DNA from: Cristatella mucedo
Taxonomy: Eukaryota > Bryozoa > Phylactolaemata > Cristatellidae
NCBI GenBank assembly: GCA_009760855.2
Contig: WPIO01000065.1
Coordinates: 2,079,001-2,143,000 of the forward strand
Direction of reading: 5' to 3'
DNA length: 64,000 nt
Shown: piece by piece, positions 19,303 through 59,555 of the stretch
Position numbering within the stretch: position 1 is the stretch's first letter
How the letters are laid out: each line of letters starts with the position of its first letter
Made by a program: the position numbers and the translations under genes
Notes under the pieces: model-generated
What the model was told of the DNA's origin: nothing
What the model saw: only the letters and a program-made list of their open reading frames with translations
The model's database searches: none

Positions 19303-19416
19303 GTCCATGGAGGGCACTGGTCAAAAATGTTTTACAAAATTCACGTTGCGGAAATGCAATTAGTCGTTTATTATCAATTTTTGTGTGTTTAACACATACA
19401 TGACAGACAAATTCAG

Positions 19417-21713: not shown

Positions 21714-21766
<53 letters not shown>

Positions 21767-24240: not shown

Positions 24241-24344
24241 TTAAATTGGCCACGTGGAACAGTGAATCCCTTTAGTCGTCGTTGAATGGTTCGTTGAGAA
24301 AAAAATTAGCTAATTGAACAACCTCATTTTATATAGCAGCCCAA

Positions 24345-24440
24345 TAGCCTTAGTGGTTATCGCCACTGCTTGCAGTTGGAAACCTCACATTCAAACCAAG
24401 GACCACGGTCGAGGAGAGCGAGCACCTTACCTCCGGGGCC
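24345..24440 (+). repeat. tRNA-like SINE fragment
   Basis: The stretch AGCCTTAGTGGTTATCGC resembles a pol III A box, and about 45 bp later CATTCAAACC resembles a B box. No tail shared with family S is obvious. It could be a separate, older SINE. Confidence 0.4.
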
Positions 24441-25009: not shown

Positions 25010-25870
25010 TTTCTAATTATGGTCTAGGTGTCATATTCCAAAGCGACCTCTCGTTAGACGACCATATCAGCTCCACAGTCAAATCTGCCTATTTTCAGCT
25101 ACATAACATTGCTAAAATTCGGGCTTGTTTAGATAAGGATACCACATCTAAGTTGGTCCATGCATTCGCGACATCCCGTCTCGACTTCTGCAACTCACTG
25201 CTTACTGGCTTACCAGCATGTGCGATCAGGCGATTGCAGCTGGTGCAAAACTCTGCAGCTAGGCTTGTCTGCCGTGAGCGTCGCAGTTGCCACATTACTC
25301 CACTTCTCGCTGACCTGCACTGGCTACCAGTCAAGCAACGGATTGACTTCAAGGTTTTGTCGCTCACTTTTAGGTCCCTTCATTATATGGCTCCAGCCTA
25401 TCTGTCAGATATACTACCCCATCAGGCCAAGCATCGTACCACCCGCTTTACTGAATCCAACAGTCTAGAAATACCTCATACAAACCTTAAATCCTTTGGA
25501 GACCGTGCATTTAGCTCGTATGCTCCCACAGCCTGGAACTCCCTCCCGACCTGCTTCAGAACATCCCCTGACCTGGCCACATTTAAAAGAAACTTAAAAA
25601 CATACCTATTTAGGACAGCATTTAGTGGGTCTCTGTGATTCGTCCTTGATGTGCTTATGCGTGCTGACACTGTGCATGCTGCCACTAACCACATTTGCAT
25701 GCTGACCCTGTGCATGTCACCCCTAACCATATTATTCTTTTCGTTTGTTTTTCAAGAATGATTTTACTTACCATTCAATTGCATTTCTCTTTACAGCAAA
25801 TGTAAAGCGCCTAGAGAGAGATTAAGTTCTCCGAGGGCGCTTTATTAAGTGAATTATTATTATCAAGTGA
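25010..25870 (+). mobile_element. LINE family 1 (CR1/L2-like): best-preserved 3' copy
   Basis: An uninterrupted frame of about 208 codons (25013-25638) covers the RT thumb and C-terminal region: LGVIFQSDLSLDDHISS, SRLDFCNSLLTGLP, LQLVQNSAARLV, LHWLPVKQRIDFKVL, SDLATFKRN-type end. The 3' UTR ends near 25860 with AAGTGAATTATTATTATC. It is 5' truncated, with no endonuclease or YADD motif. The lack of stops makes it the youngest LINE 1 insertion in the window and the best reference for the other copies. Confidence 0.9.
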
Positions 25871-27009: not shown

Positions 27010-27500
27010 ATAGTAATAATGATAATAATAATAATAGATTTTATATAGCACCCTCAGAGAACTATATCTCTTTCTAGGCACTTTACATGCACTGCAAAGG
27101 AAGCACGAGCGAATGGTTGGTGGTAGCCTGCTCAATAAACGACAAGGGTAACACGGCTAGGGATGTCATGCACAGGGTTAGCATGCAAGTATGGTTAGTG
27201 GCAGCATGCACCATGTCAGCGAGCATCAGCACATAATCACGAATCGCAGGGACCCGCTAAATGCTGTGATAAATACGTGTCTTTAATTTCTTTTTTAAAC
27301 GCGGTCAAATCTGGCGTTGTCGTGACGCAAGTCGGAAGTGAGTTCCAGGCTTTGGGAGCATACGAGCTGAAAGGAAGGTCTCCAAAGAATTTGAAGTTTA
27401 TACGAGGTATAGGTAAATGATTTGATTTCAAAAGGTGGCTGGCACCTCATGGGGAAGTACATTTGATAAGTAGGCTAGAGCTAAAGAGCCATGGGACCTA
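27010..27500 (-). mobile_element. LINE family 1 C-terminal fragment
   Basis: The minus-strand frame 27431-27237 has IPRINFKFFGDLPFSSYAPKAWNSLP (one continuous run, quoted in parts elsewhere); the 3' UTR extends to AAT repeats near 27012. The RT part upstream is truncated near 27500. Confidence 0.85.
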
Positions 27501-28487
27501 AAAGTGAGTGACTGAAACCTTCTGCCTTGGCCACTATAGGACGCATGGGCCTGACCAGGATCGCTCTTTCGAAATAATGGTCACCCAGTCGGCGAGTCCT
27601 ATCGCGGAGCGTAGGCTGGTGGAAGCCTGTTAACGAGGTTTTTTCTTAGTCACCTGTCGGATATTCTCCTATATAAAGGCTTTTCTCTTTGCTTTGCAAT
27701 ACCATAATATTGTTAGAGTTATGGGCTGAATATCGAGTGCTCTGCCGTTATCGATGGCACTTAGCTAGGTTCAGATGCTTGCACGTCGCATACGCTGTTC
27801 TTCTACCCGAAATAGTTAACATCGCTCGGTTCAAACATGATAACTAGTGTCAAAGGCTGCCGGCAGGTCAAGCTGGACGAGAGAGACCCTTTGTGCTGGT
27901 TTCCTTCAACAGGAAAGTTTCAGCAGTTTTCTTTCCATTAGTGAATGTCCGGCGGCGAGCTGCCGAGCGATTAACGGCAGGTTCTCGAGCAGCGAGCCAA
28001 ATTTCGGGGCGTCGAAGAATTCCCTCAGGCTGCTTTAAAAGGTGACCGATAGCGACACGATCCGGGGGCAGCCACATAGTCACCAAATAGATCGTGCGCG
28101 CTTATAGCACAGTATTCCACGTCGTACCGTCTCGCCGTCTGGCTTGAAGCTCTCTCAGTCACTGTTGAAACAGATAGATGACATCAGGCGTTGGTAGCGC
28201 TTCTTTTTCAGGACTGCGGCAGAGTTTGCAGTGACTCTGCGTAACACGGATCTGACGCTCTAGGCAATCGCTGCATTTGCTGAAACATTTTCTTCCGGGG
28301 AGGGAGGAGATGCCAGAGGTCACTAGCATTGGCAGTCTTACAATCAGTCTTTGCGAGATTAGCCGTTTGACTTGCTGGTCCTTGAGACCTGGGCCGGCAT
28401 CTGGCTTTGCTGGGCCCACCTGGTGCCATTGCTGGCGGGCGAGCGGCCGTTGGCACTCGTCGAAAGCATCGGTCTTTTCCTGGGTAG

Positions 28488-29925
28488 CAGCCTCTTTCAG
28501 GAGGGATCATGAGCTGACAAGACGATCAATTTAGACCACGTAACCAGAAGAAGATTGCTGTTGCCTTGCAGCACGACTTCGCCGGACGCGCGTGAAGCTT
28601 TTCTTCGCGGTCGGCTGATCGGCTTTGTGCTTCGACTGGAACGCAGAAGCGTCGGGCTTAGGCGGTGGCACAGTGGCGCCCACGCAGAGCCTGCTGCAGT
28701 ACGATCCACAAGCGGGCTTCGTATCGGAGATCAGGTCGCTGCAATCAAGTAGCGGGAACGTGTGACTGCCACACCGAGCGAAGAGCTGCATCTGCTCTGG
28801 AGAAAGAGCATATATTGCGCGTATTTAACTTTGAGATAGAACCTTCAGTCTCAGCGTCGCAATCTCAAGGGCGAACGATGTTTCAACCGGTATAAGCGAA
28901 CAGGCGCTAAAACCTTACTGCCGATTGGGATGAAATCTTTCGGAATAACTAGAGCAACTGCGTGGGTGAAGCGAGCTGTCGGTGATGGCTTGTGAGCTCA
29001 CGAGGGGTCTGAGCTTGATCCAATAGAGCCAGTCAAGGGCACATAGGCGAAGCCATCGCTTTTGGCTCGAGTCGCGACCGAGTCACCTCAGTATTCGAGC
29101 AGAAAAGCAACACCGGCAACGAGAGACAGAGTGTTTATTAAAGCTATGTCCACAGGTTCTCAGTCGGCTATTGGCCAGCCTACGATGAGCTTGCTTGGTG
29201 GCCATTCATACACTCGAGGCGAGACCGTATCGCTTCATTGCACGACGCCCCTTTCATTGGGTACCCTGTGTTCTGACCGTGGATGAAGAATAGAGTCCAT
29301 GTCAGCGTAAGTGTTGCGTTCTCGACACGTATCTCTCTAGTATCGCAAAGTTGTATCCGAGATATTCATTTGCGTCATGGCCATCGTCAGTCGGCGTCTC
29401 TGCCTGTCTCTCTGTTCGTCGTTTTACTCCCATCTCTTTACCCGCCGGGGCAACCGAAAAAAAGTCGAGCATAGCGGATTACCACTAACTTGAGCTCCGC
29501 CAGCCAAATTGAAGGCTAGAGGCACCGGTCGGCGTCAATAGGCAGGGAATAGGTGTCGCATAGGCTGCTCGGCCCTACCGTCTTGAATATTTGGAAAGAA
29601 AGTTGCCTCTATTTGCTTCGTAGCAATCTTCTGTCTTAGCTATTCACAAGTTTTTTTCGTTAGACATCGACGAATCAGCGAGTGTCCACCTCAAGGGCTT
29701 TCACGAGGCGTCACCCGTGTACTAATCAAAATGCCTCCAGCTGCGCCAAGTCTAGCAGACAAGCCTTGTAGCTGAACGCGACCCAGTAAACGTACGCAGA
29801 GTCCGCATCATGGCTGTGAATCAGAAACTCGGTCGTCTCTGACTCAGGCAGCTATAAGCGCCTCGCCTCCACACTGTCGGCACTGGCCGCTCAGTCACGA
29901 AGGAGATGACCATAAGCAGCGAGGC
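28488..29925 (+). pseudogene. Ig copy C: VEGFR/PDGFR-like pseudogene in spacer
   Basis: D2 is about 28488-28829 with RRRLLLPCSTTSPDAR and LLQYDPQAGFVSEI. A one-base deletion and several stops interrupt it, and its 3' donor is lost. D3 first half is 29156-29306: the acceptor TCCACAG|GTTCTCAG is the same as in the intact gene and a GTAAGT donor is kept, but a one-base deletion and a TGA disrupt it. D3 second half starts at 29664 after a TTTTTTTCGTTAG acceptor and ends near 29925; it has three internal stops, and Arg replaces the second Ig cysteine. It keeps SDSG, where copies B and B' have a stop. The D3 end reads into GCAG|GTGAGA, a strong donor consensus. No D1 or signal exon was recognised. 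Confidence 0.8.
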
Positions 29926-30067
29926 AGGTGAGAGCTTAAGCGTCGATGCCGGTAACTAAGGAGCGGCCATTCTAAAGATTCCATCGGAACGACTGTTGAA
30001 TATTTTAACTGGCGTGGCCTCTGTGGCTAATGATGCGACCCATCCTGGTCTGCAATAGCACCTGTTG

Positions 30068-30545: not shown

Positions 30546-30984
30546 CCCAACCACAAGTTTCGGAATAGTCTGTAATGCTCTACTGCCGCTAAAAAATGAT
30601 GCATCTAAATAGGCTAAACGTTCATCTCAGCAAAGGTGGGGTCATTTTGTCACAATTTTTCAAAAGGAATTTAAATCCGAAATGGGAGCACAAGAGCAAA
30701 GGCATTATAAGCAGAAAAATAATTCACTCCCTCTTTTTGTCACCGTTACACTGGTACTTTTGATGTATTTCTTTCCCAGTAGCCCCTAAAAAGCAAGGGG
30801 ACGCAATTGCCGCGACAGCCGTGTGCCGCTCAGCGGCTCGACATCGTCTGCTGCGCATGTTGCCTTTTCGCAGCACGCAAATATGGCATCCCGGCTAATC
30901 TGTAAATCTTTGGCGTTTTGTCGTCTGTCGTCTTGACCACCGGCGTAGCGATAGCTGCACGTCAAAGAGTATACGCAAATAATA

Positions 30985-31600
30985 ATAATAATAATAATAA
31001 TGCTCTTGATTAAGCATCCTCAGAGAACTCAATTTTCTTCTAGGTGCTTTACATTTGCTGCAAAGAGAATTGCGGCTGAATTGTGAGTAATATCATGCTT
31101 GATAAACAACATGAATAACATGGTTAGGGGTAACATGCACAGGGTGAGTATGAAAACGTGGCTAGTGGCAGCATGCACAGCGGCAGCACGCATAAGCACA
31201 TGAAGGACAAATCACAGGGATCCACTAAATGCTGTCCTAAATAGGTGTGTTTTTTAAGTTCGCTTTAAATGCGGTCAAGTCAGGATATGTTGTGACGCAA
31301 GTCGGGAGGGAGTTCCAGGCTTTGGGAGCATACGAAATAAATGCACCATCTCCAAAGGATTTCTGGTTTGTTCGAGGTATTAGTAAACTGTTTTCTTCCG
31401 AAAAGCAGGTGCATGATCCTTGGCCTGGCGGGGAGTAGATCTGAGAGATAGGCTGGAGCCAAAGAATTTAGTGACCTAAAAGTGAGCGACAAAACCTTGA
31501 AGTCGATCCGTTTCTTGACTGGTAGCCAGTGCAGGTCGGCGAGAAGTGGTGTGATGTGGCAACTGCGACGCTCGCGACAGACAAGCCTGGCTGCAAGTCA
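30985..31600 (-). mobile_element. LINE family 1 C-terminal fragment
   Basis: Plus-strand AAT repeats (30980-31001) mark the 3' end. The reverse complement reads through the 3' UTR into the SYAPKAWNSLP-type region, then LTFRSLNSLAPAYLSDLLP (minus 31492-31280) and LHWLPVKKRIDFK. It is 5' truncated near 31600, with a few frame lesions. Confidence 0.85.
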
Positions 31601-36894: not shown

Positions 36895-37559
36895 GCTTGA
36901 GGATGGTTACTAAAGTCCAGGGCTGTCTGTCAACAAAAGATCAGGACCGACTGTTTATCAACCGGCATACGAAGACAACTGTAGATCTTAAAAAATATCC
37001 TATTCAAGGCCGAGTCTAGCATTTAAAGTAACAGTGTTAAGTCAAACGTGCTTAACAGTTCTGAGTTTAAATACTTTTTACTAAAATATTTTAAAATTGG
37101 AATGGTAATGCAAGCGGTACAAAATTGCTATGATCTTAGTCGGCTTCTTTTCACATTGTATACTCTCACTGTTGTTGAAGCTTGCGACGGCTGTTATGTG
37201 ATAAAGTTCACTGACTAGGGCCAAAGCTTGACCTTTAAGCTAGGGTCCGGATGGGCAGTGGTACCTCTTAGTCTGCTCAGGTGGATACACAGAGCTCATC
37301 GGCAGAGACGTGGGATCCAGCACTCTCAGGTCGCTCAGCATTCGGATGGATAGCTCCAGTTCACAGACAATGAGGCCATCTACAGAAAGCAACGTGGATC
37401 CACTACCCGAGCGTCCCTGGAGACAAGCAGGCTGGCTTTTGGTGCGTGTATATTCCGCGTTCACCAGTAGTTTGAAGTTCGTAGCCCCCTTCCAGAGCAA
37501 GAGCCACCGGCCAGCTGAGGTGTGTTAGTGAGTCCCAGCAACTTAAGCAATAAAACGGT

Positions 37560-37700
37560 AACACTCAAAATGCAATTGTTATAGTAATAAAATAACAAAA
37601 ATCCAATTTCTTTATAGCGCCCCCAGAAAGCTCAATGTCTTTCTACGTACTGTGTAGGCGCTGCAGTGTCGTCGTGATTTGGTACTCGTGAGAAAGCAGC
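37560..37700 (-). mobile_element. LINE family 1 3' tail, right arm only
   Basis: TTTATAGCGCCCCCAGAAAG and TCTTTCTACGTACTGTG are a diverged reverse complement of the LINE 1 3' UTR. The left arm has only AT-rich sequence (22260-22320) at this place. Confidence 0.55.
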
Positions 37701-38819
37701 CCTGCCTTCAAGATGGCTATGGTTCGAGAGTGTCCTGTCGCCTTGAAAAGGCTGGCTTTGTAAGATCCCACGTTTTCCCGTAGCCTAGTCCATCTGTGAC
37801 CCTCCAATAGTTCCTTTTAGTTCCCATGCTATTGTTGGCGCATGCAATATGGCTATAAAGAAGTTTAATTGAATGACACTCCTCTTGCCCACGACCAGCG
37901 ACAGCGACATGAAAATGGGCTGCTCAGATGGGTCATAGCGACCCTGAGCTGAAACTAGCCTGAGCCGAGTTCTTGTAACTCTTAGAAATTTAACCGAGAA
38001 TTTAAGTCTAGGCCTTTACTGCCGCGTCGATGACACAATAGTGTACCTACGCTTTGGTCTCTCTAGCCTTTGAGCAAGTCAAACACTGACTAACCACTGT
38101 GGCTTTGGGTACCCAATACATTGGCAGTACCTCGGATGCTTTTTGCCGGTTGATTCTATCGCTCTAGAGTCTCCCACTGAGGTTGGACGCCAAAACGTGT
38201 AGTTCTGTGGCAGTGGAGCCCACACGAGATCAGATGTGCTCAAAAAGCAATTTGTGATCTCCGGCTGAGCATAAGCATGTCAATGAATCTGTTGGAAGTC
38301 ACCTGGCGTATTAGTCGTAATTTACCAGCTACTACTCATGTCGTTCCAATACGGCTTTTTTAGCTCTGCAAGCAGAATATTGACCGCTTTGCCGTTATTG
38401 TTGGACTATAGCGAGCCCGAGGTACTTGGACGTTGCTCATGTCGTGCCGCCTGTAGGGAAAAGCCAACAATCTGATTGTCACATCTAAATTCCAAGCCAC
38501 CTTCAGATAAAAAGGAAGTAGTTTCAAGCAACCACTCGAGAAAATATGCCAATACTCATGTTTGTTAGCCACGCTAATTGATTAGTGTCAGGTCAAAAGG
38601 TATTAGTGCGTCACTTCGAGTTAGCAGTTTAATAACGGATGCTCGATGAATAGAACTGATCTCGTGCTCAGCGATTTGTTGTTTCTTTTGCTTCTAGTTG
38701 CCAAAACATTTTGCACCGAAAGGTGCAATTTCTGGTGACATTAGCTTTCATGGAAAGAAAAATAGACAGAGCTTGGATGGTGAATAGCAAAGCCAGTCAC
38801 GCCAAATAGATTCCTTTGA

Positions 38820-38945
38820 CAGCTTTGGCTGCAGGTTGATCGACGGATACAGAGCAAAGTTCTAACGCTGACCCGCAATGCCTAGCTAAGGCTCCTTCAA
38901 CCTAGCTGAATTGCTGCACCAGTTTCAGCCTCCGCGTTCGCTCAT
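38820..38945 (+). mobile_element. LINE family 2 remnant, right arm
   Basis: Contains GGATACAGAGCAAAGTTCT and CCTAGCTGAATTGCTGCACC, matching the LINE 2 frame around QRIQSKVLT and YLAELLHQ. Only this short part remains, compared with about 500 bp in the left arm. Confidence 0.6.
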
Positions 38946-39325
38946 ATCCCACTGGTCAACGTTGAAATCCTCACTGCCATAAAAAGGCTATAATCAGTAG
39001 TATCTACGTGTGCGGAATACTAGCGTTACTGTAACCTATTTTAATGGCTCTCGTTTTGAAAATATTTCTTATAGCTCATATAATTGTTTCACCGCGTTGA
39101 TGTATGCAGTAGTATTTCTACAACATCCTAAATAAGCCTAGACTGGTGCAATATTGCATCGCATTGCACATTAACGTCACACACAAGTTATCTCGAGTTG
39201 ATTGCACTAATTTCGATGCAATGCATTACTACAGCAAGCGGCTGCTTCACTAAACTGACGTCGTAACGCCGAGTCGCCAATGTTGAGAATTGAAATTATT
39301 TCAGACTTTTTACGAAGAATTTCAA

Positions 39326-40127
39326 GCTACTGTTTTATCCATCGGGTAAATACAGAACATGAATGCCTCAAAAGTGTGTTAACATCGCGGACGATGGCTG
39401 CTATATTTGTGGAGAAGTGACATTAGCTACTGTTTTATCCATCGGGTAAATACAGAACATGAATGCCTCAAAAGTGTGTTAACATCGCGGACGATGGCTG
39501 CTATATTTGTGGAGAAGTGACATTAGCTACTGTTTTTTATCCATCGGGTAAATACAGAACATGAATGCCTCAAAAGTGTGTTAACATCGCGGACGATGGC
39601 TGCTATATTTGTGGAGAAGTGACATTAGCTACTGTTTTATCCATCGGGTAAATACAGAACATGAATGCCTCAAAAGTGTGTTAACATCGCGGACGATGGC
39701 TGCTATATTTGTGGAGAAGTGACATTAGCTACTGTTTTATCCATCGGGTAAATACAGAACATGAATGCCTCAAAAGTGTGTTAACATCGCGGACGATGGC
39801 TGCTATATTTGTGGAGAAGTGACATTAGCTACTGTTTTATCCATCGGGTAAATACAGAACATGAATGCCTCAAAAGTGTGTTAACATCGCGGACGATGGC
39901 TGCTATATTTGTGGAGAAGTGACATTAGCTACTGTTTTATCCATCGGGTAAATACAGAACATGAATGCCTCAAAAGTGTGTTAACATCGCGGACGATGGC
40001 TGCTATATTTGTGGAGAAGTGAAATTAGCTACTGTTTTATCCATCGGGTAAATACAGAACATGAATGCCTCAAAAGTGTGTTAACCTCGCGGACGATGGC
40101 TGCTATATTTGTGGAGAAGTGACATTT
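39326..40127 (+). repeat. 100-bp minisatellite, eight copies, right arm only
   Basis: Units start at 39326, 39426, 39526, 39628, 39728, 39828, 39928 and 40028; the third is 102 bp because of an extra TT. Units are nearly identical (single changes such as GAAATT at 40021 and AACCTC at 40084). Each carries an ATG followed by 20 codons that include DDGCYICGEVT. The left arm has one diverged unit at about 19630-19725. Confidence 0.95.
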
Positions 40128-40345
40128 TTTATCAACCGCGAGGCTTCACGCACCGCTTCACGAGTGAAGGCAAATCGTCTTTACTTCAGATGCAATTTAG
40201 ACAACCAAGACCAGCCTTGGGCCCGTATTTATGCTGCACTATAAGTACAAGGCAGCTTTTACACTGGTTGACTGGCACAAGACCGTCAATAGCGTCTTCA
40301 GTCCCCATGGTATGGAGAGAGACAAGCAACTACATATATGACTGA
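40065..40345 (+). pseudogene. Small cysteine-containing coding module, right arm
   Basis: From the ATG at 40065 (in the last minisatellite unit) the frame encodes CYICGEVTF and continues through KANRLYFRC and QDQPWAR before a stop. A one-base shift is needed to reach the next part (LLHWLTGTRPS, VPMVWRETSNYIYD), which ends at 40345. The pattern matches an uncharacterised metazoan N-terminal module of about 90 residues that I recognise only from its conserved cysteines and the VWREP motif. Its function is unknown; this copy is frameshifted and has no downstream region. Confidence 0.5.
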
Positions 40346-40449
40346 ATTTGACTGTCGTATTTGTGTTTTGCTACCACAAATTGATATGAAATGATTGGTT
40401 TCATTTTAGAAAGGTGATTTTTGTAAAAGAAAAAATTTGACCGGGGTCT

Positions 40450-40812
40450 TCCATGGACAACAAATTAGCTGGTAAATTCCTCACATTAAAGCCCTTTGGA
40501 GGCAGGAGCTTTAGCTCTTCAGTTCCAAGACTGTAGAACTCTCTTCGAATTTACTAATGCAACGACAACTACACTTCTTTTGACGACTATCCCAAATCCT
40601 TTCCAGCCGTCCTGACCTGCTACTTCCATGCTACTCACACATACAATTGCGATTTTGACTCAGTTATGCTTCACAATTCTTTTAGTCGCATGAGCTGTTA
40701 TCTCTTCGCTACCGAATGCAAACCAAGAGTCGCTTAGCCTATTATAGCACCCACATTCTCACTATGGCTTTGCGGAGTGACAGGTGGAGATACCTTACAT
40801 TACGTTATAGTG
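40450..40812 (+). mobile_element. LINE family 2 3' fragment, right arm
   Basis: Retains TAGCTGGTAAATTCCTC, GGAGGCAGGAGCTTTAGCTC and the tail CCTTACATTACGTTATAG. It has several stops. Mirror of 18830-19161. Confidence 0.75.
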
Positions 40813-40819
40813 CCAACCC

Positions 40820-42115
40820 ATTAAGACAGGCCTGCCGGTCAGCGACCTTTGCTTCGTTATAGAAAACTCAGTGAAGGTCAAAAACTGATTTGCCTTGCCT
40901 CAGCATTCAAGTTTGCAGTAGCGCACGCACAGTGGGTATCCAGCTAAGATTTCTTGGCGAACGCATTAAATCGTGCCGTTCCTGCCACGAACAAGAAAAA
41001 CCGAATTCTGCCGCTTCCTCAAACACTTCGTCCACAAGTCCTTCTATGTGCAAACCTAAGCGATGCAAAATGGCAGTATGGTTCCACCCGAGGCTCCGAA
41101 CCTGCTATTTAAGCTCCTTAAGCCACTGTATCACCGATTTAGTCTTTTGGACTGAGATACGCGGCCAAATACACGACAGTAACTGGAAAAATCTGCAAAA
41201 ACATACTGCAAACACAGAATTTATAGTGCAGCCTGTAGAGTCGGTGGCGCTGCAGAGTCTGAGAGTAAGCATCAGCTCTTAGCGGCGCGATCTCCGCCAT
41301 CATTGTTTCCAGGTGTTCCGCCTGAAAAGCTACGCTAGGCGTTCTACCAGCCTCCACACAGCCGCTTCTATGGTTGCATAGACTAGCTCACTTCGGGTAG
41401 TTCCTCTGGTTGAAAAACATAAATGCCGCATGCAGCCAGTTCAAGCGAAGCTCGCCCTCTCGTTCGAGCTTAATCACCTTCAAGTCATATTTAGGGAACC
41501 TACACCTAGCCAGCCCGTTCACGCGGAATTTCAGCATCCATCCTGTAATTTGCCGAGGCGCCGATCGGGCGCCAAAATGTAGAAACCGACCACTCAGTAG
41601 AGAATAGACGTAACCAGCCTTGCCATGAGGAGTAGCAAACTGTCTAGTTCTTTTCGGCGTGCATCTATCGGCAATAGGCAAGTCGCCTCGCCTACAGTGC
41701 TTCTCTCCGAAATCACTTCACAAAACTATTGTTCGGATGCTACCCTACGATTAGATCGTGCTTACTGAGGAAAAATCTAACAGCGTCAGTTCAGGCTCCT
41801 ACTTGCTCGGCCAAAACTCCGAACACTACTATAAAAGAGAACTGTCCTCTAAACCCCCAGAAACGTTCATATTTATCTTCGAACTCACGACGGGGTGAGC
41901 TATTACCCGGGTGAGCGTATACGACCACGTCTGTCATGCACCTTCTGCCTCTCGAGCCGTTTTACACACATCCGACTCCGGAATTCCGGCCGTTGTCGTC
42001 TGACAGGTGCTGACCGTTCCTGGCCCGCCCCCCCTCCGTCGCCAATACTCAACGGTATACGTCAATGACTGGCCGACTAAGCCTGACCCCGATTTTCTGG
42101 TGCTGTAATGCCCCG
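40820..42115 (-). mobile_element. LTR-retrotransposon-like fragment, right arm
   Basis: Mirror of 17500-18825. The primer-binding-site-like word is at 41574-41557 on the minus strand. The downstream frame is interrupted earlier than in the left arm. The same uncertainty applies about LTR ends and the absence of pol domains. Confidence 0.35.
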
Positions 42116-42469
42116 TGATTATTAACTATGAACTTGGCAGTTGAGCCTCAATTAGGAATTATGAGCTTTCCCAGTGAATGAGGACGCTTATGAGTTGGCT
42201 GCGATAAGCTAAGGCTTATGAGCAACGCTACGTGTGACTATTGCTATTGATTATTGGTTGTAAGTGATCAGTGTGACTTATGAGCTGGCTGCAATATAAC
42301 GCTTGTGCCTAACAGCTGCCGCGATCTTCGAGCAACGATCTGCCGGTCGGTGAGTGTAGCACTGAGCGCGAGCTGCTGTTAGCTTGTTAGCTAGTCAACA
42401 GAAAGTAAACCGTGTGTATCAGCTGCATAGGGCAGGCTGTTGTGCTTTTACTGACTGAACTAGCTTGCC

Positions 42470-42640
42470 GATCAAGTGCATGTCACCCCTAACCATATTA
42501 TTCTTGCAGTTTTTCGAGCATGCTACCACAAAGCGTTTGTGATCGGGCTTCCTTTAAGCAAACGTATAGCGCCTAGAAAGACATTGAGTTCTCTGAGGGC
42601 ACTTTATCGAATTTAATATTATTATTATTTATTAATATGG
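42470..42640 (+). mobile_element. LINE family 1 3'-end fragment, right arm
   Basis: CATGTCACCCCTAACCATAT, then GCGCCTAGAAAGACATTGAG, ending in ATTATTATTATT. Mirror of 16990-17200, with high similarity. Confidence 0.8.
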
Positions 42641-42774
42641 TCTAATTGCTAGGGCTGCGTACGGAATATTGAGTGCATAATTTTAACTTTGGCGTATTTC
42701 AAGCGTCAGATCTTCGCACATTGCACGCCTTGTGCGCCTGCCCGAACTAGTGAGGGTTGATCGGTCATAACACC

Positions 42775-42905
42775 GCAGCGGTCTTACCAACTGGTTAAGA
42801 TGGTTGCCCAGACCTAGGAACATGCAAATTCACGTGCAGGCCAAGGTCGGGGGTCTGAGCCCCGCGGAATTTGTGAAGCATGTTCTTTGAAATTATATTC
42901 TATCA
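42775..42905 (+). repeat. tRNA-derived SINE (family S), right arm
   Basis: Head with GGTCTTACCAACTGGTTAAG, B-box region GGGTCTGAGCCCCGCGG, and a degenerate tail. Mirror of 16735-16860. Confidence 0.55.
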
Positions 42906-43291
42906 GGACGCTGTATAAATGTATTACGTATTTGTTATACATTTTTGTTCGGCATAGATAAAACTCTAAAGCTGCCCAAGTGCTGCTAGGCCACAAGCGG
43001 TCTATAATACGCTTAATTCTTTGCTTGTATGCGTCGCCCTAAATATAAACTATAAACCCAAACCCAAAGCATTAACCCACTAACCAATTATTGACAATAT
43101 GAACTAAACAGTGAATTGTTTAGAAAGCTGTCGTGCGTGGTGAATTGAAACAAAATAATTGCCGAAAGCATCGTAATCTAGTTGCGGCACTTAACCACTT
43201 GGGAGATCACCGGTCGGTCATTTGTCCCCGCCCGTAGCAAATCGCGCGTTATACGATCCCTTCGTCTGGCTTGTAGCGCTCCTCCCTCACA

Positions 43292-45377
43292 ACGGACTTG
43301 ACAACACGACATTTGGCGATACTGGCGGTGGTTCTTCTGGGATGCAGCCAAACTCACAGTCGGACGACAGAAGGGCGCCAGATCGGTGATACTGGTAAGG
43401 CGCTCTACAAAATGGCGGCATTTGCTTGAGCAACTTCTTTGGTAGGGTTAGAGGAAGCAACCGCCAGCCGTCGCTCGCTTTGGCAGTCTTATAATCTGTA
43501 ATTGCACCGATTGCCGCAAGGACGGGCCGGTCCGTGAGACCACGGCGCGAATCGGGCAGTGCTTCGCTCACCCAGTGTTACTAAGCACGAATGAGCGGCA
43601 ATTGCCACGAGGCGAGAGCACCCGTGTCTTGCTATGCGTTACAGACTCGACCGGACTCTTTGCAGAGGGAACAAGAGCCGACGAGAATATCAATTTTGAT
43701 GGCGTGACTAGAAGAAAACTGGTGCTTCCTTGCAGCTCGACTTCTTCGGACGCTTGCTTAAAGCGGCTTCGCGTGGTTGGGTCCACTGGTCGAGCTGTGC
43801 TCTTCGACCGGACTGCGGACGGCATTGGTGGCATGGTGGCACCCACCGAAAGCTGGCTGCAGTACGACCCACGAGTCGGCTTTGTCATGGAGATCACGTC
43901 GCAGCAAGCTGCTTAAACGTATGTCTGTCGGGCCGAGCGCAGCGGCGGCTCCATTTAAGAGAAGCATTTTATCGTGCGCGTATTCAACGGTAAGCTTGAA
44001 GCTTAAAATGTAGCATCGCAGGCGCTCGATCGCTTTTCTGTTGGTTCCCTGGGACTGGCGCAATGGATGTGGCGGAGTGAAGTGGTGTGGTGAAGGCGAA
44101 GACTTCGCAAGAGCGTTCGCTTTTTCTGTGGGCTCTGGCAAAAAGGCGCAAAGCCACCCGCCAATACACAGGATCAGTGCGCTTCCGCTGCGGCAACGGC
44201 AGCACCGCAGACGCCTCGCCCGGTCAGTGCCGGAAGTCGTGACGTTCGGGAGTGGCGAATCCATATCGGCCGCTTGAGAACGGAAAGCAATGGTTGTTCG
44301 CAAGGTCGCGAGAGGGTTCAGCGTGATTGCATGTTGCTGGTCACGCTTTTGCGAGCGAAGCAGTTGCTGCCGGCCAAGCTCTTGCCGGGGTGGCGTAGTG
44401 GTGGCGTAGCGCCACCATCGCCACAGTGGCCGAGATGCAAAGCGGCTCCGGCGACTAGAGGCAAAGCGATTGTTAACGCCACGCGCCTAGGTTCTCCGAT
44501 GGCCATTGACCAGCCGACAATGAGCTTGCCAAGTGGCTACGCTTATACTCAAGGTTCGACTGTATCGCTGCATTGCACGACGCTCGTCTTCGTCGGGAAC
44601 CCGGTGTTCTTTATGTGGATGAAGAACGGTGTACCGATCAGCGTGAGTACTGCCTTCCGCACAGTCCAGCCCTCGTCCGTGCTTGTCTCACAGGTGTCTG
44701 CCTCTCGCCGTTCGTAGCTCTACTCTCGCCTAGCCTTAATGAAACGATCATCAGGCTCATGCATATGTCGAGCAGACCGTGTGAAACGCGAAATCGATCG
44801 CCGCGATCCCTGTGGAAGACGAGAGGTGCCGTATCAAAGGCGCGACAGGCACTTAACGGTTGCGATGCCCAGTGGTATTTGGTTCGCTATCGTCCGCTCG
44901 GCGAACTTCTTGCCGGTGCCATCCGTTTAGACTGCTTGTGCTGAAGAACTCGCACCCTAGCAACATCGATGACCGTGAAACTTCTCGAAAGCGTGACTTA
45001 GTATCCTTGATTTGAATTCAGAGTAAAAAGAATTCCTATTGTCATCGTTGCGGTACAAGGTCTTAGCCTTTTACAATTTTCTGTCGACTTCGACAGATCA
45101 GCGAGTGTCCATCGATGCGGCAAGTGCGAGGCGTCCATGTTCGAATCAAAACTCGTCCAGCTGCACGCTCAGCCGTCACGCACAGCAGCTGAACGCCACC
45201 CTATCGGATTGCAACAAAGTCGCATCGTGGCTGTCGATCAGACGTGCAGTCGCCTCCGACTAAGGAGAGTATCACTGCCTGGCCTCCACTGTCGGCATTG
45301 GCCACTCTGTCAACCAGACAATTACCGTCAGCAGCGACTGGGGCTCGGCGAGCACTGGCAGTGGCGTTGCTAAATAA
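43292..45377 (+). pseudogene. Ig copy B': VEGFR/PDGFR-like pseudogene in right arm
   Basis: Signal exon 43292-43394 has exactly the length (103 nt), phase and hydrophobic core (HLAILAVVLLG) of exon 1 in the intact gene, but its start codon is ACG. Exons for D1 are missing. D2 is 43645-43989 (RRKLVLPC, LQYDPRVGF), with GTAAGC donor and two in-frame TAA codons that the left arm lacks. D3 first half is 44491-44642, 152 nt as in the intact gene, fully open, with SLHCTTLVFVGNPV and a GTGAGT donor. D3 second half is 45087-45377: the acceptor AG is lost, one TAA precedes GEYHC, and the frame ends at 45375-45377 in TAA, 12 codons beyond the place where the intact gene stops. Confidence 0.85.
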
Positions 45378-46227
45378 ATCGCACCTCACTTGGTGCTCCG
45401 GTTTTGAACCTGCAGTTTGCTTTCATTTACGTCGTTACATCGTATACGTAGCAGCCCCATGTTGACTAGCAGCCGACCTTTGCATTTGTTATCGCAATGT
45501 TGCTAAGAGTTTTGAGGACGAGCACGTGGCTCTTAGCCCAGGTTTGCGTGCTCGTTCTTTTCTACCTCATGTGGCCTGTTCGAGTCGGCAGTGGCGATCT
45601 TTTATTGCCCACGACAGGTGGTGGTAATGGACGGTAAGGCTCTTCTGCTGCTATAAACGAATGTTAATTTGCTAACCTTGAAGTTTCAGGAAAGGCTGGT
45701 GCTTTGTGCCAAGGATTTCCCGAATGAACGTGCGACCCAAAATTCCAGTATATGTGGCAACCCGCTGCAAGCTTACAAACTATTACCAACGCATTACATA
45801 AATACTAATTTAAAAGAAGCCAGGCACGACCGCGTCTTTGGAGATTTTTTATAGCACACGCTGAGATTTTCCATCAATTTTGAGTCTTAAAAGTGTTATT
45901 TGTATCTTTCACTTTCATTCTCTCGCTTTTCCTTCCCGCTTTCATTTTATTTCTACCTCTGTCCCCGTCTACCTTAAAAGGGAGGTGATGCAACGAACAA
46001 GATAGTCGCGTGCAGTGTACGCACAGCTGCTTGAGCTTGGCAGCGTAGCATCTTGCCTTTCAGCAGCTCGCTAATCGAGCCCTAGTTCGCTCTCTACATT
46101 TCAGACTTTTCCGTCGCCTAGGCGTCAGGCATGGGGATAGCTGCAGGTCAAACTGTGGGTGCAAATCGATATTCCTAGCGGTGTAGTGAATTCGATAGCG
46201 TAAATGCGGCTTTAGCCTAACTACAAC

Positions 46228-46229
<2 letters not shown>

Positions 46230-46269
<40 letters not shown>

Positions 46270-51594: not shown

Positions 51595-52860
51595 AACTCA
51601 ACCTCTGCGGGTGATGGCTTGGCAGCTGCATGATGTAACCCTCTTTCGTATCAGCCTCCGCATTACAGCAGGGCGCTGTAAAGCGGGACTCAGTCGGCGA
51701 TCAGCGTTTTCTGTATAGATGTAAGCGCCCTGATTAGAAGGAACGTCGGAAAGGAGGAAATTCGATAGTCTAAACGCAGCGTAAGAACTGTGTATAACAC
51801 CCACAGTTTGACGCGCAGCTAAGGCCGTGCCAGTAGTAAAATCAACAAGTCGTGGAAATTATAAGTTTTAAAGACCGGTTATGCGATCGCATTGGCTAGA
51901 TTCGGGCAGGCAATATACAAAGCAGCCGATCTCGGAAGCTGGGCGTACACGGCGCACGGCTAGAACGGCCATTGTATCGCCTCACCTCGCCCTAGATGAG
52001 ACTAACTCCAAGTAAGACCTACACCAGAGACTGGAGAGACTGTACTGAGCAGGACGCAAAAAGAGACAGTGAGAGAAAGATAGAGAGAAAGGAAGAGAGT
52101 CATCCGTCGCGCGTTGGCACGCATTTGTCTGCATGCAGCGCCTTAGCTCAAATGCTTGCATTTCCGTTTAGGCGCACATTTTTTTCAATATTAGTAGAGC
52201 GGTACAACCTTTCCTCGGTGTTAGTGGTGATCCCATTCGAAAGGCTTATTTACAGAGCTCAAAAAGAGCCAAAACCGGCTACTACCAGCTACTTGCAGCC
52301 GACAACCTCGGAACGCCTGCTGCAGCACTCGAACCAACAACGTTCTCAAGGTTTCAACGGTTAAGACCAGCACACAGACATTCTTTGGCTGTCCCTGAAA
52401 TTAAGCGTCTTAAGCATGCCCAGCTAGTCACCAGTATTTGGCGTACGTGACCGTAAGAAAGTGAAAAGTGATATCGAATAAGGTGAACAGTGCACATTGA
52501 CACAGAAGGCGATTGACCAGCAGCACGAGCAGTAAAGGAATGCTGCAAAAGAAGCCAGCCTAACTAGCTGTAAAATATCCCATCATGACCTATGCACCGG
52601 TTGTGGACGCGAGCTCTGCTTAATGTGGACATATGCACGAAGCACCTGCTTTCGAACATGATTTTCACGCGAACAAGGAGAACAGCAAATGTTTACAATC
52701 GTAAGGGTGTGCAGAGGCAACAGCTGCTTGCAGCGAGGCGTGAACTATAATATTGCTTCCTCTTCAGTGCATGCAAAGTGCCTACGTAGAGGTTAAGTTC
52801 TCCGATATGCTATACATATTTTTTTAATTATAACGATTACCGCGTGACAATAATTGCAGT
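51595..52860 (-). repeat. Dispersed repeat family R, copy 1
   Basis: Shares CTCTTTCGTATCAGCCTCCG and CATTACAGCAGGGCGCTGT with the copies at 53400 and 58670. Its middle contains a tRNA-like segment (about 52280-52350). Its right part (52410-52860) matches 60550-61075. The tRNA-like part reads on the minus strand. No protein is evident. Confidence 0.75.
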
Positions 52861-53104: not shown

Positions 53105-54130
53105 GCCACCGACGCACCTATAACGGCTCAAAATACTTATGACCTGTGTAATTACTCGGAAAGACCTTTTTATACGTTTATCTTCCTTGGATTAATATTT
53201 TACTCAAAATAATATAATAATATAACTCATTTATATAGCGCCCCAAGAGAACTTAATCTCTATGCAGGCGCTTCACATATGCCTCGGGGCTCGAGCCCAC
53301 GACCTCAATCAGATCTTGGTCGGAGCGAGCACCTTAACTGCTAGACCAAACTAGCTCGGCAATACGGTGTGCTAATCACTGAAACCGCATACTCGACTTC
53401 TGCAGGGATGACTTGGCGGCCTTCTGATGAAACCCTCTTTCGTATCAGCCTCTCCATTACAGCAGGGCGCTGTGAAGCGGGACTCAGTCGGCAATCAGCG
53501 TTTTCTTCAACGATTTAAGCACCCTGACTATAAGGACAGTCGGCTTCGATAACGAAAAGAAACTTTGGACTAAACGCAGCACACAAAACTTTGGCTGGCA
53601 ACAGCCGTTCGACGTGCAGCTATCGCCGTACATAAAATAACTTCTACAAGTGTCAGATATTCTAAAATGTCGAGAGGAGTTCCACTGCCATACTTGCTAG
53701 CTTAAGGGAGGCTTGTATGCAAAGCAGCCTATCTCAGATGTAAACTGTAAGCGGCACACGGCTAGCACGATCATTGCATCGCTTCGCATTAAAGAGATCG
53801 GGAAAGAGTTAGACCTAAGGTAGGAGCGAAATGTTATTTATCGACCGTTGGAAGGCATTAGTCATTATGCAATGCCTTCGCTTAAATGCTCGCATTTCAG
53901 TTGACAAACATATTTAGGCAAAGCGGTGCCATCTTTCTTCAAGTTAACGGTTAGCCGATTTGTGTAGCCCTGTTTGCATTTCGGCAGAAGAACCGTACCA
54001 GATACTGCTACCACTTGCAGTAGGCCACCTCGGAACGCCTGCCGCAGGACTTGAACCGATAACCTGGGTCGTGAATATCGAGTTCCTTAACCCTGGACTT
54101 AGACGCAGACGTCCACAAGGCTTTCAAATG
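53105..54130 (-). repeat. Dispersed repeat family R, copy 2
   Basis: Starts with CGCACCTATAACGGCTCAAA, as does the copy at 58535. It is interrupted by a family S SINE (53205-53375), then continues with the shared block and a tRNA-like end. The minus strand of that end has a perfect B-box match, GGTTCAAGTCC, at about 54045-54055. The unit ends roughly 330 bp beyond the stop codon of the intact Ig gene. Confidence 0.8.
53205..53375 (-). repeat. tRNA-derived SINE (family S) inside repeat R
   Basis: On the minus strand: tRNA-like head ending in GGGCTCGAGCCCC, then GTGAAGCGCCTGCATAGAGA, TTAAGTTCTCTTGGGGCGCT and an ATTATATT tail. The tail is the closest SINE match to the LINE 1 3' end. It is absent from repeat R copy 3 at the homologous place (58640). 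Confidence 0.8.
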
Positions 54131-54455
54131 ATTAGTGTTTTATTTCTACACGCCAGTGCCTGGGTAACATGGGCCAGTCATGTCGCAGGGCATGCACTCT
54201 AGCGACAGCAGCACCTGACAGCAGCTGACGTCACCGGCAAAGACTGGATGACCTGCCGCCGGCGGCTCAAGGTCTCAGCAATGCAAGGACGCTCAGCGTT
54301 TTCCGCGGATGAAAGAAAACGCGACGAATTGGAGCATTGTTTTCCACTACGGCCAAGTCAGCTATGAAATTCAACAGTAATCACGATAGTTTCGCTAGAA
54401 TGACAGGGCCTCCTCACAGCTCGTGTCGTCGTTCTGGCTCTTTCTTGGCTCCGGC

Positions 54456-56974
54456 TTAGCTGCTGACCGTCACCTTCTCTGTGACAAAGCGGTTAATGCC
54501 GACCGTGGAAGCACTGCATTGATACTCGCCAGAGTCGGACACGACCGCGCCTCTGATCACCAGCCTTGATGCCACCTCCGTGTAAGCCGGCTGACTCCCG
54601 TTCAGCAGTTTACCTTGTCCGCTGGAGGCACAGCTGGAGGAGCTTTGATTAGTACATTGCTGCCTCGTCGATGCACTTTCAATTGACACGCGACGATCAG
54701 TCGAGTTCTGAAAGAATTTGTAATCGACTAAGACCAACGATTCGTGGAAAGAAATCCTCACGCCTTCATTGCCACTGTTCAAAACATGAATTCCCAAACG
54801 CACTTTTGAGAGTCAGACTTGCAACGATGTTTCCGAGCTGAGACGCCACGAGCTAGTGTAGCCGATAAGGACGACGCCGGCGAGCTGGGCGGTCAAAGGG
54901 AAGATGGGAAACCCCTACAGCCGCCTATCGATGCCCACAGGCGCTTCACGCCTTCAATGCGGCGGGCGAAGCTCAATTTAGCAGTGCTCCCGGTGTGCTC
55001 GACTTTTTTGCGAGATTCTGCCAATCGATGGGGCAAAGTCGCAGGAAAGAGCAGGAAAGAGCTGACGAACGGCCCTGATGAGAGAGAAGCTGAGCGACGG
55101 CGGCAGAGAGGCAGAGGCCGGGGGAGGCAGGCCGGGCTGCCGTCCAGAAAGCAGTGCTTACATTTATCGTGATGCCATTCTTCATCCACGTCCAGGTCAC
55201 GGGGTTCCCACTGAAGATGTTCGTCGTACAATGCAACGACATAGTAGAACCTTGAGCGTAAGCGTAGCCACCTGGCGAGCTCATCCAAGGCTGGCTAATA
55301 GCCAACTGAGAACCTGTGGACGCAGCATTTAATGCACACTCCAACGTCACCTCTCAAAGCGGCTCTGCTGCTCAGCTACAGCATGGCGATTCAGCTCGAC
55401 CATCGCACCACGCCGCCACTGCTCGCCATAATTAGAGTTAGGCAGCAGCTAATGCTTTGCTGACGAAAAGAAAGACGGGCGAGTTTCAAAGAAGCCAAGA
55501 CCAGTAGCGAGCAGACAAGATACCGTAGCCAGATCGCCGAGCCCACGCATTCGTTAATGTTTCGCTAGCAAACAATGTGGCGAGCTGTACTGATGCTCGG
55601 GCAAGCAAGTTCTGCCTTACCGTACAGGACGCGCAAGTGCAGCCTTTTCTCCTGGGGGATGGAGCCGCTGTGCTCCACCTGACAGATGTACGTTCCTGCA
55701 GCTTGCAGCGACGATATCTCCACGAGGAAGCCCCTTCGCGGGTCGTACTGCAGCCCGCTCTGGGCGGACGCCACTAGACCACCGCCTCCGTCGGCAGCTT
55801 CCGCCGTCCAGTTGAAGAGCAAAGCCCGATCGGCGGTGCCAACCGTACGAAATAGCTTCACTCGCACGTCCGGCGAAGTTACGCCGCAAGGCAGAAGCAA
55901 CCTTCTTCCCGTCACGCCGACTAAAACGGTAGGCTCGTTTGCTCTCGTTAGCCCCTGAAAGAGTCTGCTCGGGTCTGCAACGCACGAGAAACATAAGCCC
56001 CAGCCGCATTCCAATCAACGCTCGAGCGCGGACAGTGAAGCTCCGTTTGCAAAGACGCATTAGCCAGTCACGTACCGCTGACGAAAACGAAGACACTTGG
56101 CCGTCGTTCCGATGCTCTGTCTGCTGCGTCGGTCCCTAACGACTCGGCCGAGCGGTTGCCGCGAGCGCAGGAGTACTCTCCCGTGTCCAAGTGCGTGGCA
56201 TTGACGACGCTCAGCGTGCTCGACCATTCGCTTTTCGCCTCAACCCACGAGAGCGACACTGACGACGAGCCATGCATGGAGTGCTGCAGCGGTGAGGAAA
56301 TTCCTTTGGTCGAGCGCATTGGCAAAGTTTGCACGTCAGCTGACGCGAATGCCAGGCAAAGTTCGCGCTCGCGCGCCCGCCACTGCTCACGTTGGACTTC
56401 TTGCCCGGGTACGTCCATTCGAGGTCGGCGGTTGAGCCGCTGCACGTCAGCTGAATATTACCGCCGGCCTGACGCCGCAAGAAGCTGGCATTGATTTCGA
56501 GCAGCGAATCCTGGTCTACGGCGAGGGAGAGCGAGCGCGGCGGTATGCGATCCTTGCCTGCTACGGTGCAGAAGCCGCGCCAAACGAGCGGACCTCGGAC
56601 GAGGAGGATCGGCACCGGCCAGATATGGCAGCATCGCGGCCATGAGCACTCTCGCTACCGATGGGTGCCATAGTCCCGGTGCCTCAGCTGCTGCTGCTCT
56701 CGGCAGAGCAGCAGCCGTTGCGATCTAGCAGGGATCGGCGAGACGCGTGGCTATACTTGCAAGAACCTATTGCCGGGCTGCCGCCGCGAGCCACTCGCCG
56801 GCAGTTCTTATTATTCCTCCCGACCGAAGCAGTCATTTCAGAGAGCGCAGCCATCGCATGCGTAGACTTACCCACGTTACCGAGGCGGTACTCTCCCACG
56901 GTCTCACTGCAAGCACGGCCGCCGCCGAGAAGTATAACCGCCAATAACGCCAAATGTCCTCTTCCGAAGTCCAT
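54456..56974 (-). CDS. Secreted three-Ig protein resembling VEGFR/PDGFR D1-D3 (intact, six exons)
   Basis: Exons: 56974-56872, 56557-56391, 56283-56076, 55974-55621, 55313-55162, 54707-54456 (TAA). All five introns are GT..AG, 101-454 bp long, with phases 1, 0, 1, 1, 0; the total is 1236 nt, 411 residues. The start ATG has a strong context (GCCATGG), and no upstream in-frame ATG exists. Residues 1 to about 22 form a signal peptide (HLALLAVILLGGG). Ig D1: Cys73-Cys129 with DTGEYSC. Ig D2: Cys189-Cys257 with GRRLLLPCGVTSPDVRVKL, YDPRRGF and TYICQVE, the pattern of D2 in class III/V receptors. Ig D3: Cys306-Cys392 with WTWMKNG and SDSGEYQC, plus an extra Cys346/Cys354 pair. Several N-glycosylation sites are present. 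The linker FVFVSD between D1 and D2 resembles that of VEGFR1. D2-D3 is the growth-factor-binding region in those receptors. No transmembrane or kinase part follows, so I infer a soluble ligand-binding or decoy protein. Ligand, expression and any longer splice form are unknown; another Ig family cannot be excluded. Confidence 0.85.
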
Positions 56975-57545: not shown

Positions 57546-57614
57546 CTCAATGACTAGTAAATATGTATGTAATCGCACGCGTCCCTATCCGTAACTTAAC
57601 GGCAAACCAATTGT

Positions 57615-58530
57615 GATTCGGAAATTAAAAGGTTAAAGCTCAAAATCGGCTCTGCCAACATATCTACTGTTGAATCTGCACGAAATCTAGGTTTCATGTT
57701 CCAAAGTGACCTTTCGTTAGATGACCACATCAGCTCTACAGTCAAGTCTTCTTACTTGCATCTACATAACACTGCTACAATTCGGGGTTGCTTAGATAAA
57801 GATACCACATCTAAGCTGGTAAATACATTTCTTATATCCCGTCTTAACTTCTGTAACTCACTGTTTGCTGGTCTACCGGTATGTGCAATCAGGCACTTAC
57901 AGCTGATGCAAAACTCTGCAGCTAGACTTGTCTACTGCGAGCACTGCGGTTGCCATATCACGCATCTTCTCGTCGACCTGCACTGGCTACCGGTCAAGTA
58001 ACGGAACGACTTCGAGGTTTTGTCGCTCACTTTTAGGTCCCTGCATTCTTTGGCTCCAGCCTATCTATCAGATCTGCTCCTCCAACAGGCTAAGCGTCGT
58101 ACCACCCGCCTTTCGGAAAATAACTGTTTACCTATACCTCCTACAGACTTCAAATAATTTGGAGACCGTGCCTTTAGTTCGTATGCTCCCAAAGAGTGGA
58201 GCTCGCTGTCGACATCCGTCACGACATATCCTAACTTCAAAACATTCAAAAAGATATTTAAAATGCACCTATTTGTGGCAGCATTTAGTGAGTCCCTGTG
58301 ATTCGTCTTTAATGTGCTTATAAGTGCCGATACTGTTGCATGCTGCCACTAACCACACCTGTATGCTGACCCTGTGTATTTCACTCCCAACCATGTCATT
58401 CATGTTGTTTATAAAGCATGGCACTACTCACCATTCAATCGCGTTTCCATTTGCAGCGAATGTAAAGCGCTTAGAAAGAGATTGAGTTATCTAAGATTAC
58501 TTTCTCAAGTGTATTATTATTGTTATTATT
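57615..58530 (+). mobile_element. LINE family 1 (CR1/L2-like) C-terminal fragment
   Basis: Frame open from about 57616 to 58001: LGFMFQSDLSLDDHISS, SRLNFCNSLFAGLP, LQLMQNSAARLV, DLHWLPVK, then a stop (TAA replaces Gln of the KQR motif). The remainder continues with two frame changes to the 3' UTR, which ends in ATTATTATTGTTATTATT near 58530. It is 5' truncated. Family R copy 3 begins directly at its 3' end. Confidence 0.9.
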
Positions 58531-59125
58531 ACAAACGCACCTATAACGACGCAAAATACTTAGCACTTTCTCAATAACCCAATAAGACATGTGTGCAAGT
58601 TTATCTTTTGATTAATATTTTACTTAGAATACGCTACAATAATCATTGCAACCGCATACTCGACTTCTGGGGGTGATGGCTGGGCGGCTTTCCGGAGAAA
58701 TTCACTTTCGCATGAGCCTCCGCGTTACAGCAGGACGCTGTGAAGCGGGACCAAGTCCGCACTCGGCGCTTTCTTATTAGAGGTAAGCACTCTGACTAAA
58801 AGAAAAGTCGGCGTCGACAACGAAAAAAGACGATAGTCTAAACGCAGCGTAAAAACTTTCGCTGGCACCCACTGTTCGATGTGCAGCTACCGCCATGCCT
58901 ATAATAACTTAGACTAGTGGCAGATATTCTAAAATGTCGAGACCATTACCTCGGCTGTTTTGCTAGCTGCAGGAAGGCCTGCATATAGAACAGACGATCT
59001 CAGCAGCAAACTGTAAGAGGCACACGACTAGTACGGTCGTTGCATCTCCTGGCATAAAACAGATCGGGAAAGAGTTAGTCATATGGTGGGAGTGCTATCA
59101 AAAGAGACCAAAAGGCAGAGAGAGA

Positions 59126-59161: not shown

Positions 59162-59555
59162 GAGGAGGAAAACAGCGTGAAGTTTTCTTGATGTAGCAGT
59201 ATTTTCGAAAATGCGGCAGTGCTAGGCTATCTTGTTAGCCATCATCCGTTGGCAGGCATTTCTCATCATGCAAAGCCTTTGCTCAAATGCTTGCGTTTCA
59301 GATGACATGTATATATTTAAGTAAAACAGTAACACCGTTCCTCAAAGTTCATGTTTAGCCGATTCGGCAGCCTTCTTAAATTGCGTCAGAAAAGCCGCAC
59401 CGGATAGTGCCACCACTTGCAGTAGGCCACCTCGTAACGCCCGCGGCGGAACTTGAACCCGAAACCTGGGTCGTGAAGATCGAGTTCCTTAACCCTGGAC
59501 TCGGACGCGGGTGTCCGCTGGGCTTTCAGCCAGTTAACTACGGCTAGTGTGCAGA
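58531..59555 (-). repeat. Dispersed repeat family R, copy 3 (left part)
   Basis: Begins AAACGCACCTATAACGACGC and carries the CGTTACAGCAGGACGCTGT block and the tRNA-like end (minus strand GGTTTCGGGTTCAAGTTCC near 59450-59468). It contains a GA-rich tract at 59118-59160. A further match to copy 1 resumes at about 60550, so the 59556-60550 segment is either inserted here or deleted from copy 1. Confidence 0.75.
59118..59165. repeat. (GA)n microsatellite
   Basis: About 45 bp of GA with GGG interruptions. Confidence 0.95.

Follow-up and report, generated by a model that had tools for sequence, protein, structure and literature searches.

Does an animal outside the vertebrates encode the ligand-binding front end of a VEGF/PDGF receptor in a gene of its own, and is that gene intact? 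This question is raised by a locus on contig C614 of the bryozoan Cristatella mucedo, situated in a stretch of 64,000 nucleotides that was analysed as a whole (the window; positions given without a contig name refer to it). A first-pass annotation of this stretch had described an intact gene of six exons and 411 codons for a protein with a signal peptide, three VEGF/PDGF receptor-like immunoglobulin (Ig) domains, D1 to D3, with paired cysteines, and a stop directly after the last strand of D3. It had further proposed that this short architecture is ancestral to a family of neighbouring copies and that the animal's receptor tyrosine kinase is encoded elsewhere.

Gene structure and predicted protein

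The six exons lie on the minus strand between positions 56974 and 54456 and join to 1194 nt, corresponding to 397 residues and a TAA stop codon. All five introns (356, 107, 101, 307 and 454 nt; phases 1, 0, 1, 1 and 0) are of the GT-AG type and the frame is open, in agreement with the first-pass annotation. Exon 1 (56872-56974) contains the start codon in the context GCCATGG and encodes a signal-peptide-like N-terminus. The first half of D1 (D1a) is encoded by exon 2 (56391-56515), and the second half (D1b), together with the start of the D1-D2 linker, by exon 3 (56076-56283), while D2 resides entirely within exon 4 (55621-55974). D3 is again split: its first half (D3a), generic Ig by sequence, is specified by exon 5 (55162-55313) and its second half (D3b) by exon 6 (54456-54707), where the TAA at 54458-54456 follows directly after the last strand, just as had been described. 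A polyadenylation signal-like hexamer, AATAAA, is present on the same strand about 310 nt past the stop (54139-54144); a hexamer of this kind within about 300 nt can easily be due to chance.

The length of 411 codons had to be corrected. The 3' junction of exon 2 is ambiguous, and alternative joins, which were tried at the exon 2/3 junction only, comprise six others that are in frame and lead to 366, 381, 392, 393, 407 and 419 codons including the stop; none of the joins tried gives 411. We prefer the 56391/56283 join because its phase, and nearly also its place after the D1 tryptophan, match the corresponding junction in the animal's own VEGFR, which is described below (8 residues past the tryptophan in the gene and 10 in the receptor, by eye).

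The N-terminus of the gene product is hydrophobic and, judged by hydropathy alone, the protein is predicted to begin with a signal-peptide-like segment, consistent with the annotation. No second membrane-like segment was found when the 397-residue protein was scanned with 19-residue Kyte-Doolittle windows, the later windows peaking at a mean of 1.04. Nine cysteines are present (residues 22, 59, 115, 175, 243, 292, 332, 340 and 378), among which 59/115, 175/243 and 292/378 are positioned as Ig-type pairs. N-glycosylation motifs likewise number nine, with one overlapping pair. The extra D3 cysteines, 332 and 340, encoded by exon 6 (54707-54456), are also seen by eye in three of the related copies introduced below, D, B' and C. 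D3b of the C. mucedo VEGFR likewise has two extra cysteines at about the same place, with slightly different spacing (by eye), and the pair may perhaps form an added disulphide of this lineage.

Similarity to VEGF/PDGF receptors domain by domain

When the whole protein was compared with 177,635 distinct PDB sequences, 88 matches were obtained at E values up to 1. The top five were VEGFR1 (4.5e-13), PDGFRB (1.7e-8), PDGFRA (3.4e-7 and 3.5e-7) and VEGFR2 (1.7e-6). An origin from FGFR was rejected, as FGFR3 appeared in this search only at 0.11; kinases that are presumably of the FGFR type, judged by eye from a motif, are present on contigs C28 and C144. With D1 and the linker alone (235 matches, E up to 10), VEGFR1 (2.2e-7), PDGFRB (7.4e-7) and VEGFR2 (3e-6) came first; ranks four to six were taken by a surprising entry, an iota-carbonic anhydrase chain (3.3e-6), and by PDGFRA (4.4e-6) and titin (4.9e-6). 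The D2 exon yielded 16 matches, the first five of which were VEGFR1 D2 chains at about 5.5e-4 with only 28 residues aligned, and the next SIRP-gamma at 0.007. In the whole-protein search, the D2 core LLLPCGVTSPDVRVKL aligned with LVIPCRVTSPNITVTL of VEGFR1. At the level of sequence, D1 and D2 are therefore of the VEGFR/PDGFR type, D2 over 28 residues only.

D3 behaves differently. On its own it matched DSCAM (1.9e-6), DCC (5.6e-5), a receptor-kinase fragment (7.3e-5) and AXL (8.8e-5), and no VEGFR or PDGFR chain occurred among the best 60 of its 144 matches. By sequence it is a plain Ig domain, and we call it D3 because domain order as well as exon split and phase are as in the C. mucedo VEGFR. 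The proposed VEGFR/PDGFR likeness of all three domains thus holds for D1 and D2, each of which found VEGFR1 first when searched alone, and for D3 is suggested by order and exon layout.

Several general Ig families exceeded the Pfam cut-off, with V-set assigned to D2, while the VEGFR-1-like family PF21339 stayed below it (20.8 versus 27 bits). A search with the PF21339 profile gave no match in the C. mucedo genome nor in any of 14 control genomes and is thus uninformative. A single-sequence AlphaFold model of D2 alone was poor (mean pLDDT 58.9). None of the 1958 Foldseek matches to this poor model reached an E value of 0.001 or better; V-type Ig domains and antibodies were found, and VEGFR was absent from the best 50 of the 1958.

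A kinase-bearing VEGFR and candidate ligands

A search of the 572 Mb genome for the tyrosine-kinase family gave 163 matches (141 of 606 candidates scored), and 20 stretches around selected matches were examined. One of them, C669:620001-650000 (minus strand), contains pieces of all seven Ig domains (D1-D7) as well as kinase exons and a transmembrane segment, and represents a seven-Ig VEGFR whose kinase is split. A kinase-bearing VEGFR thus does lie elsewhere in the genome, as surmised. The joined kinase exons matched VEGFR2 kinases at 7.4e-66 and scored higher with a chain labelled EGFR (9p9u, 1.9e-93). Further kinase exons at C669:1281001-1289000 have an atypical DFG region and do not belong to a VEGFR; we take them, from reading by eye, to resemble RYK.

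The gene and the VEGFR on C669 share four intron phases (D1a/D1b 0, D1b/D2 1, D2/D3a 1 and D3a/D3b 0, by eye), although an intron with no counterpart in the gene appears to split D2 of the receptor. Over the best 141 residues, the identity between the two is 27%. D1-D3 of the receptor, with an approximate join in D2, matched vertebrate VEGFR at 1.3e-4 at best, compared with 4.5e-13 for the gene. Given the low identity and the gene's better match to vertebrate VEGFR, we reject the idea that it was recently derived from the C669 receptor by duplication and truncation, and conclude that the gene is old. Genome searches with D2-D3 and with the signal peptide plus D1 revealed no closer receptor.

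Candidate ligands were found as well. Two PDGF-family matches exceeded the Pfam cut-off, one on C664 (1085347-1085532; 2.4e-6) and one on C222 (9.8e-4). On the latter contig, three weaker PDGF/VEGF-domain matches, one with a stop, bring the number to four within 180 kb (13521976-13701674), and C222 perhaps harbours a ligand gene cluster. As a control, 14 further genomes were searched for the PDGF family and a single one, from an archaeon, gave a match, which stayed below the cut-off.

Related copies on contig C614

A genome search with D2-D3 returned 18 matches, 17 on C614 and one on C222 (E 0.84), with the C669 receptor not among them. When the signal peptide plus D1 was used, six of eight matches were on C614 and the remaining two, at 0.6 and 0.99, elsewhere. 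As far as these searches reach, the close relatives are confined to C614. Six copies were found there, one of them intact and one more, copy D, perhaps intact. The relatives noted in the first-pass annotation thus exist, yet each of the four within the window is disrupted by stops or frameshifts. Copy A (6723-10667, plus strand) consists of D1b (6723-6836), D2 (7073-7414), D3a (8569-8664) and a D3b-like part up to a TGA at 10665, and is disrupted by a TAG in D2. Copies B (14674-16338, minus strand), C (28486-29959, plus strand) and B' (43295-45377, plus strand) are pseudogenes without D1; within the window, D1 matches occur at the gene and at copy A and at none of these three. In the numbering of the gene's codons, the stops in exons 4-6 are located at 239, 253 and 373 in B', which has no frameshifting indels, at 221, 225 and 373 in B, and at 156, 304, 348, 354 and 364 in C, the latter two also bearing frameshifting indels. 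B' is an inverted duplicate of B, and the stop at 373 common to the two suggests that both were dead before this duplication. Its arms (13781-22798 and 37076-46233) are about 9 kb long, lie about 14 kb apart and are complementary in many blocks to 76-99%.

Copy D (C614:2174226-2178490, plus strand) is situated about 31 kb beyond the right end of the window. Its matches to D1a, D1b and D2 are free of stops, the D3a match contains one TAA, perhaps in an intron, and a TGA and a TAG are listed in the match to D3b. Reading of 501 bases showed the D3b exon to be open for 87 codons from the acceptor and to end with EVEIYKDDANS followed by TAG, such that the two listed stops lie upstream of the exon. 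The first exon of copy D was not found in the search with the signal peptide plus D1.

The gene itself is flanked by direct repeats (53969-54126 and 59371-59528; also 53407-53587, 58675-58855 and 51613-51793). The block at 53969-54126 includes the stretch GGTTCAAGTCC, which we take to resemble a tRNA-type B box, so that the repeat is perhaps a SINE. Repeats that also occur many times in the flanks were observed at 23609-25863, 27010-27434, 30977-31598, 57600-58531 and 5705-6277, and the frames at 57600-58000 and 5768-6180 read, by eye, like parts of a LINE reverse transcriptase.

A putative soluble decoy

In an animal with a kinase receptor and PDGF/VEGF-like ligand candidates, the simplest role for a secreted D1-D3 protein would be that of a decoy. 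We consider it moderately probable that the locus encodes a dedicated, kinase-less, secreted VEGF/PDGF receptor-like D1-D3 protein from its own gene in the C614 cluster and that this protein serves as a soluble decoy. The gene would have originated long ago from a receptor gene of the VEGFR/PDGFR type, whose 5' exons were either duplicated on their own or left behind when a duplicate lost its 3' exons. Outside the cell, D2-D3 would bind a PDGF/VEGF-like ligand, which would thereby be kept away from the kinase receptor. We infer the identity of D3, secretion, ligand binding and trapping. Only tentatively, and as a rather unlikely extension, do we suggest a lineage-specific cluster of soluble VEGF/PDGF decoy genes that underwent duplication and loss alongside expanded ligand loci, independently of vertebrate PDGFRL.

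Two of the findings described above speak against a decoy: D3 alone prefers DSCAM, DCC and AXL, and the D2-VEGFR1 match covers 28 residues, the remaining D2 being V-set-like according to Pfam and the poor fold model. The same V-set character of D2 and the generic Ig nature of D3 would suit a secreted immune or recognition protein, that is, a receptor ectodomain that was copied and then altered to bind a target other than PDGF/VEGF. Copies that duplicate, diverge and die would also be in line with such a role, as would dN/dS ratios among copies of 0.42-0.51, which denote no strict constraint. However, the VEGFR-type D1, the linker and the D2 core have been kept, even more so than in D1-D3 of the C669 VEGFR, and PDGF/VEGF-like ligand candidates are present in the genome. 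We therefore regard an immune or recognition protein as unlikely, though the strongest competitor of the decoy.

Is the gene under constraint?

The disruption of every other copy in the window raises the possibility that the gene, too, is recently dead or dying and that its frame is open merely by chance. In exons 4-6, dN and dS amount to 0.31 and 0.71 between the gene and B' (ratio 0.44) and to 0.33 and 0.63 between the gene and C (ratio 0.51). Changes unique to the gene are distributed nearly evenly over codon positions 1 to 3 (36, 30 and 36), which counts against constraint and in favour of a dying copy. On the other hand, six of six exons and their splice sites are intact, and stops would have accumulated under neutral drift after the split: in a simulated neutral walk over 753 nt (2000 runs), 26%, 9%, 1.5% and 0.3% of the runs remained stop-free at 0.05, 0.1, 0.2 and 0.35 changes per site, respectively, the last value being half of dS by assumption. 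Moreover, D3b of the gene and of copy D, which have 30 identical residues, differ at 39 first, 36 second and 60 third positions over 82 codons, an excess at third positions in a comparison in which synonymous sites are saturated. A dead or dying copy appears improbable to us in view of these data.

Does the gene end after D3, and is the short form ancestral?

The D3b exon of the C669 receptor and exon 6 end at the same place, so that the family resembles the 5' portion of a receptor gene. The notion that the short form is ancestral was originally based on the copies in the window, and this ground proved weak, as these are pseudogenes with differing stops. Little can be learnt from the stops in A, B' and C, which could represent reads into a former intron: with 3 stops among 64 codons, almost half of all random reads meet one within 13 codons. 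Stronger backing for an old short form comes from copy D: its D3b is open, its stop follows soon after D3, the sequence at its end can be aligned with the bases past the last strand of the gene, and no GT donor is present between its last strand and the stop.

Donor-like sites do exist in the family: the gene has AAG/GTGACG within its last strand, copy D has a comparable AG/GTG, and copy C has GTGAGA immediately behind D3. When exon peptides of the C669 receptor for D4-D7, the transmembrane segment and the kinase were searched against the window plus 30 kb on each side, there was no convincing match (E up to 1, best 50); the top hits were that of D7 to D3 of the gene itself (0.011) and one of D5 (0.039), which we attribute to chance. 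Four kinase motifs found nothing in the same region, and no tyrosine kinase was located on C614 among the matches listed (141 of 606 candidates scored). There is only a slim chance that the six exons are the beginning of a longer gene, perhaps for a membrane-bound protein, with exon 6 also spliced to later exons and the TAA closing just one isoform: the donor-like sites and the shared exon end would permit it, but no convincing likeness to the downstream domains was found in the window and 30 kb on each side, C614 has no listed kinase, and copy D lacks a donor ahead of its stop.

Comparison with known systems

Soluble receptor front ends that act as traps are already known in vertebrates, and the C. 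mucedo gene probably represents a natural growth-factor trap. Mammalian soluble VEGF receptors, which hold back the growth of vessels, arise as forms of the receptor gene itself. sFLT1 resembles the C. mucedo protein in being a kinase-less receptor front end but is such a form, and it has six Ig domains. The gene reported here stands alone with three Ig domains and is located on C614, whereas the VEGFR that was found is on C669; unlike a splice form of the sFLT1 type, it is not a product of that kinase receptor gene. Compared with class III/V receptor tyrosine kinases, the genomic sequence specifies D1 and D2 of their type without D4 onward, transmembrane segment and split kinase. The C669 VEGFR itself agrees in the D1-D3 layout and the four intron phases and differs by its seven Ig domains, transmembrane segment and split kinase. 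An artificial mouse construct, sFlt-1(1-3), consists of just D1-D3, like the protein predicted here; it is active in mice, with effects partly like and partly unlike those of full-length sFlt-1 (PMC4230935). In the main text of a review on VEGF evolution, the words 'soluble' and 'decoy' are absent (PMC10328876). In a narrow literature search, no invertebrate gene came up that encodes VEGFR D1-D3 on its own.

A close parallel is PDGFRL (PRLTS) of vertebrates, which has its own gene, a signal peptide, three PDGFR-like Ig domains, a stop directly after the last D3 strand and no kinase. Its architecture is the same as that of the C. mucedo gene, with an own gene for D1-D3, a stop after D3 and no membrane segment. 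Alignment with a PDGFRL sequence gave 23 bits over D1-D2. The gene scores closer to VEGFR1 and PDGFRB than to PDGFRL, albeit in different databases, and is unlike PDGFRL in not having a long basic N-terminal stretch. The function of PDGFRL is described as debated (PMC9541363). If the proposed decoy is real, a stand-alone D1-D3 family outside the vertebrates would show that a decoy function can become a gene of its own, and the gene would provide a minimal natural ligand-binding module whose binding is directly measurable. The family also bears on how PDGFRL may have arisen.
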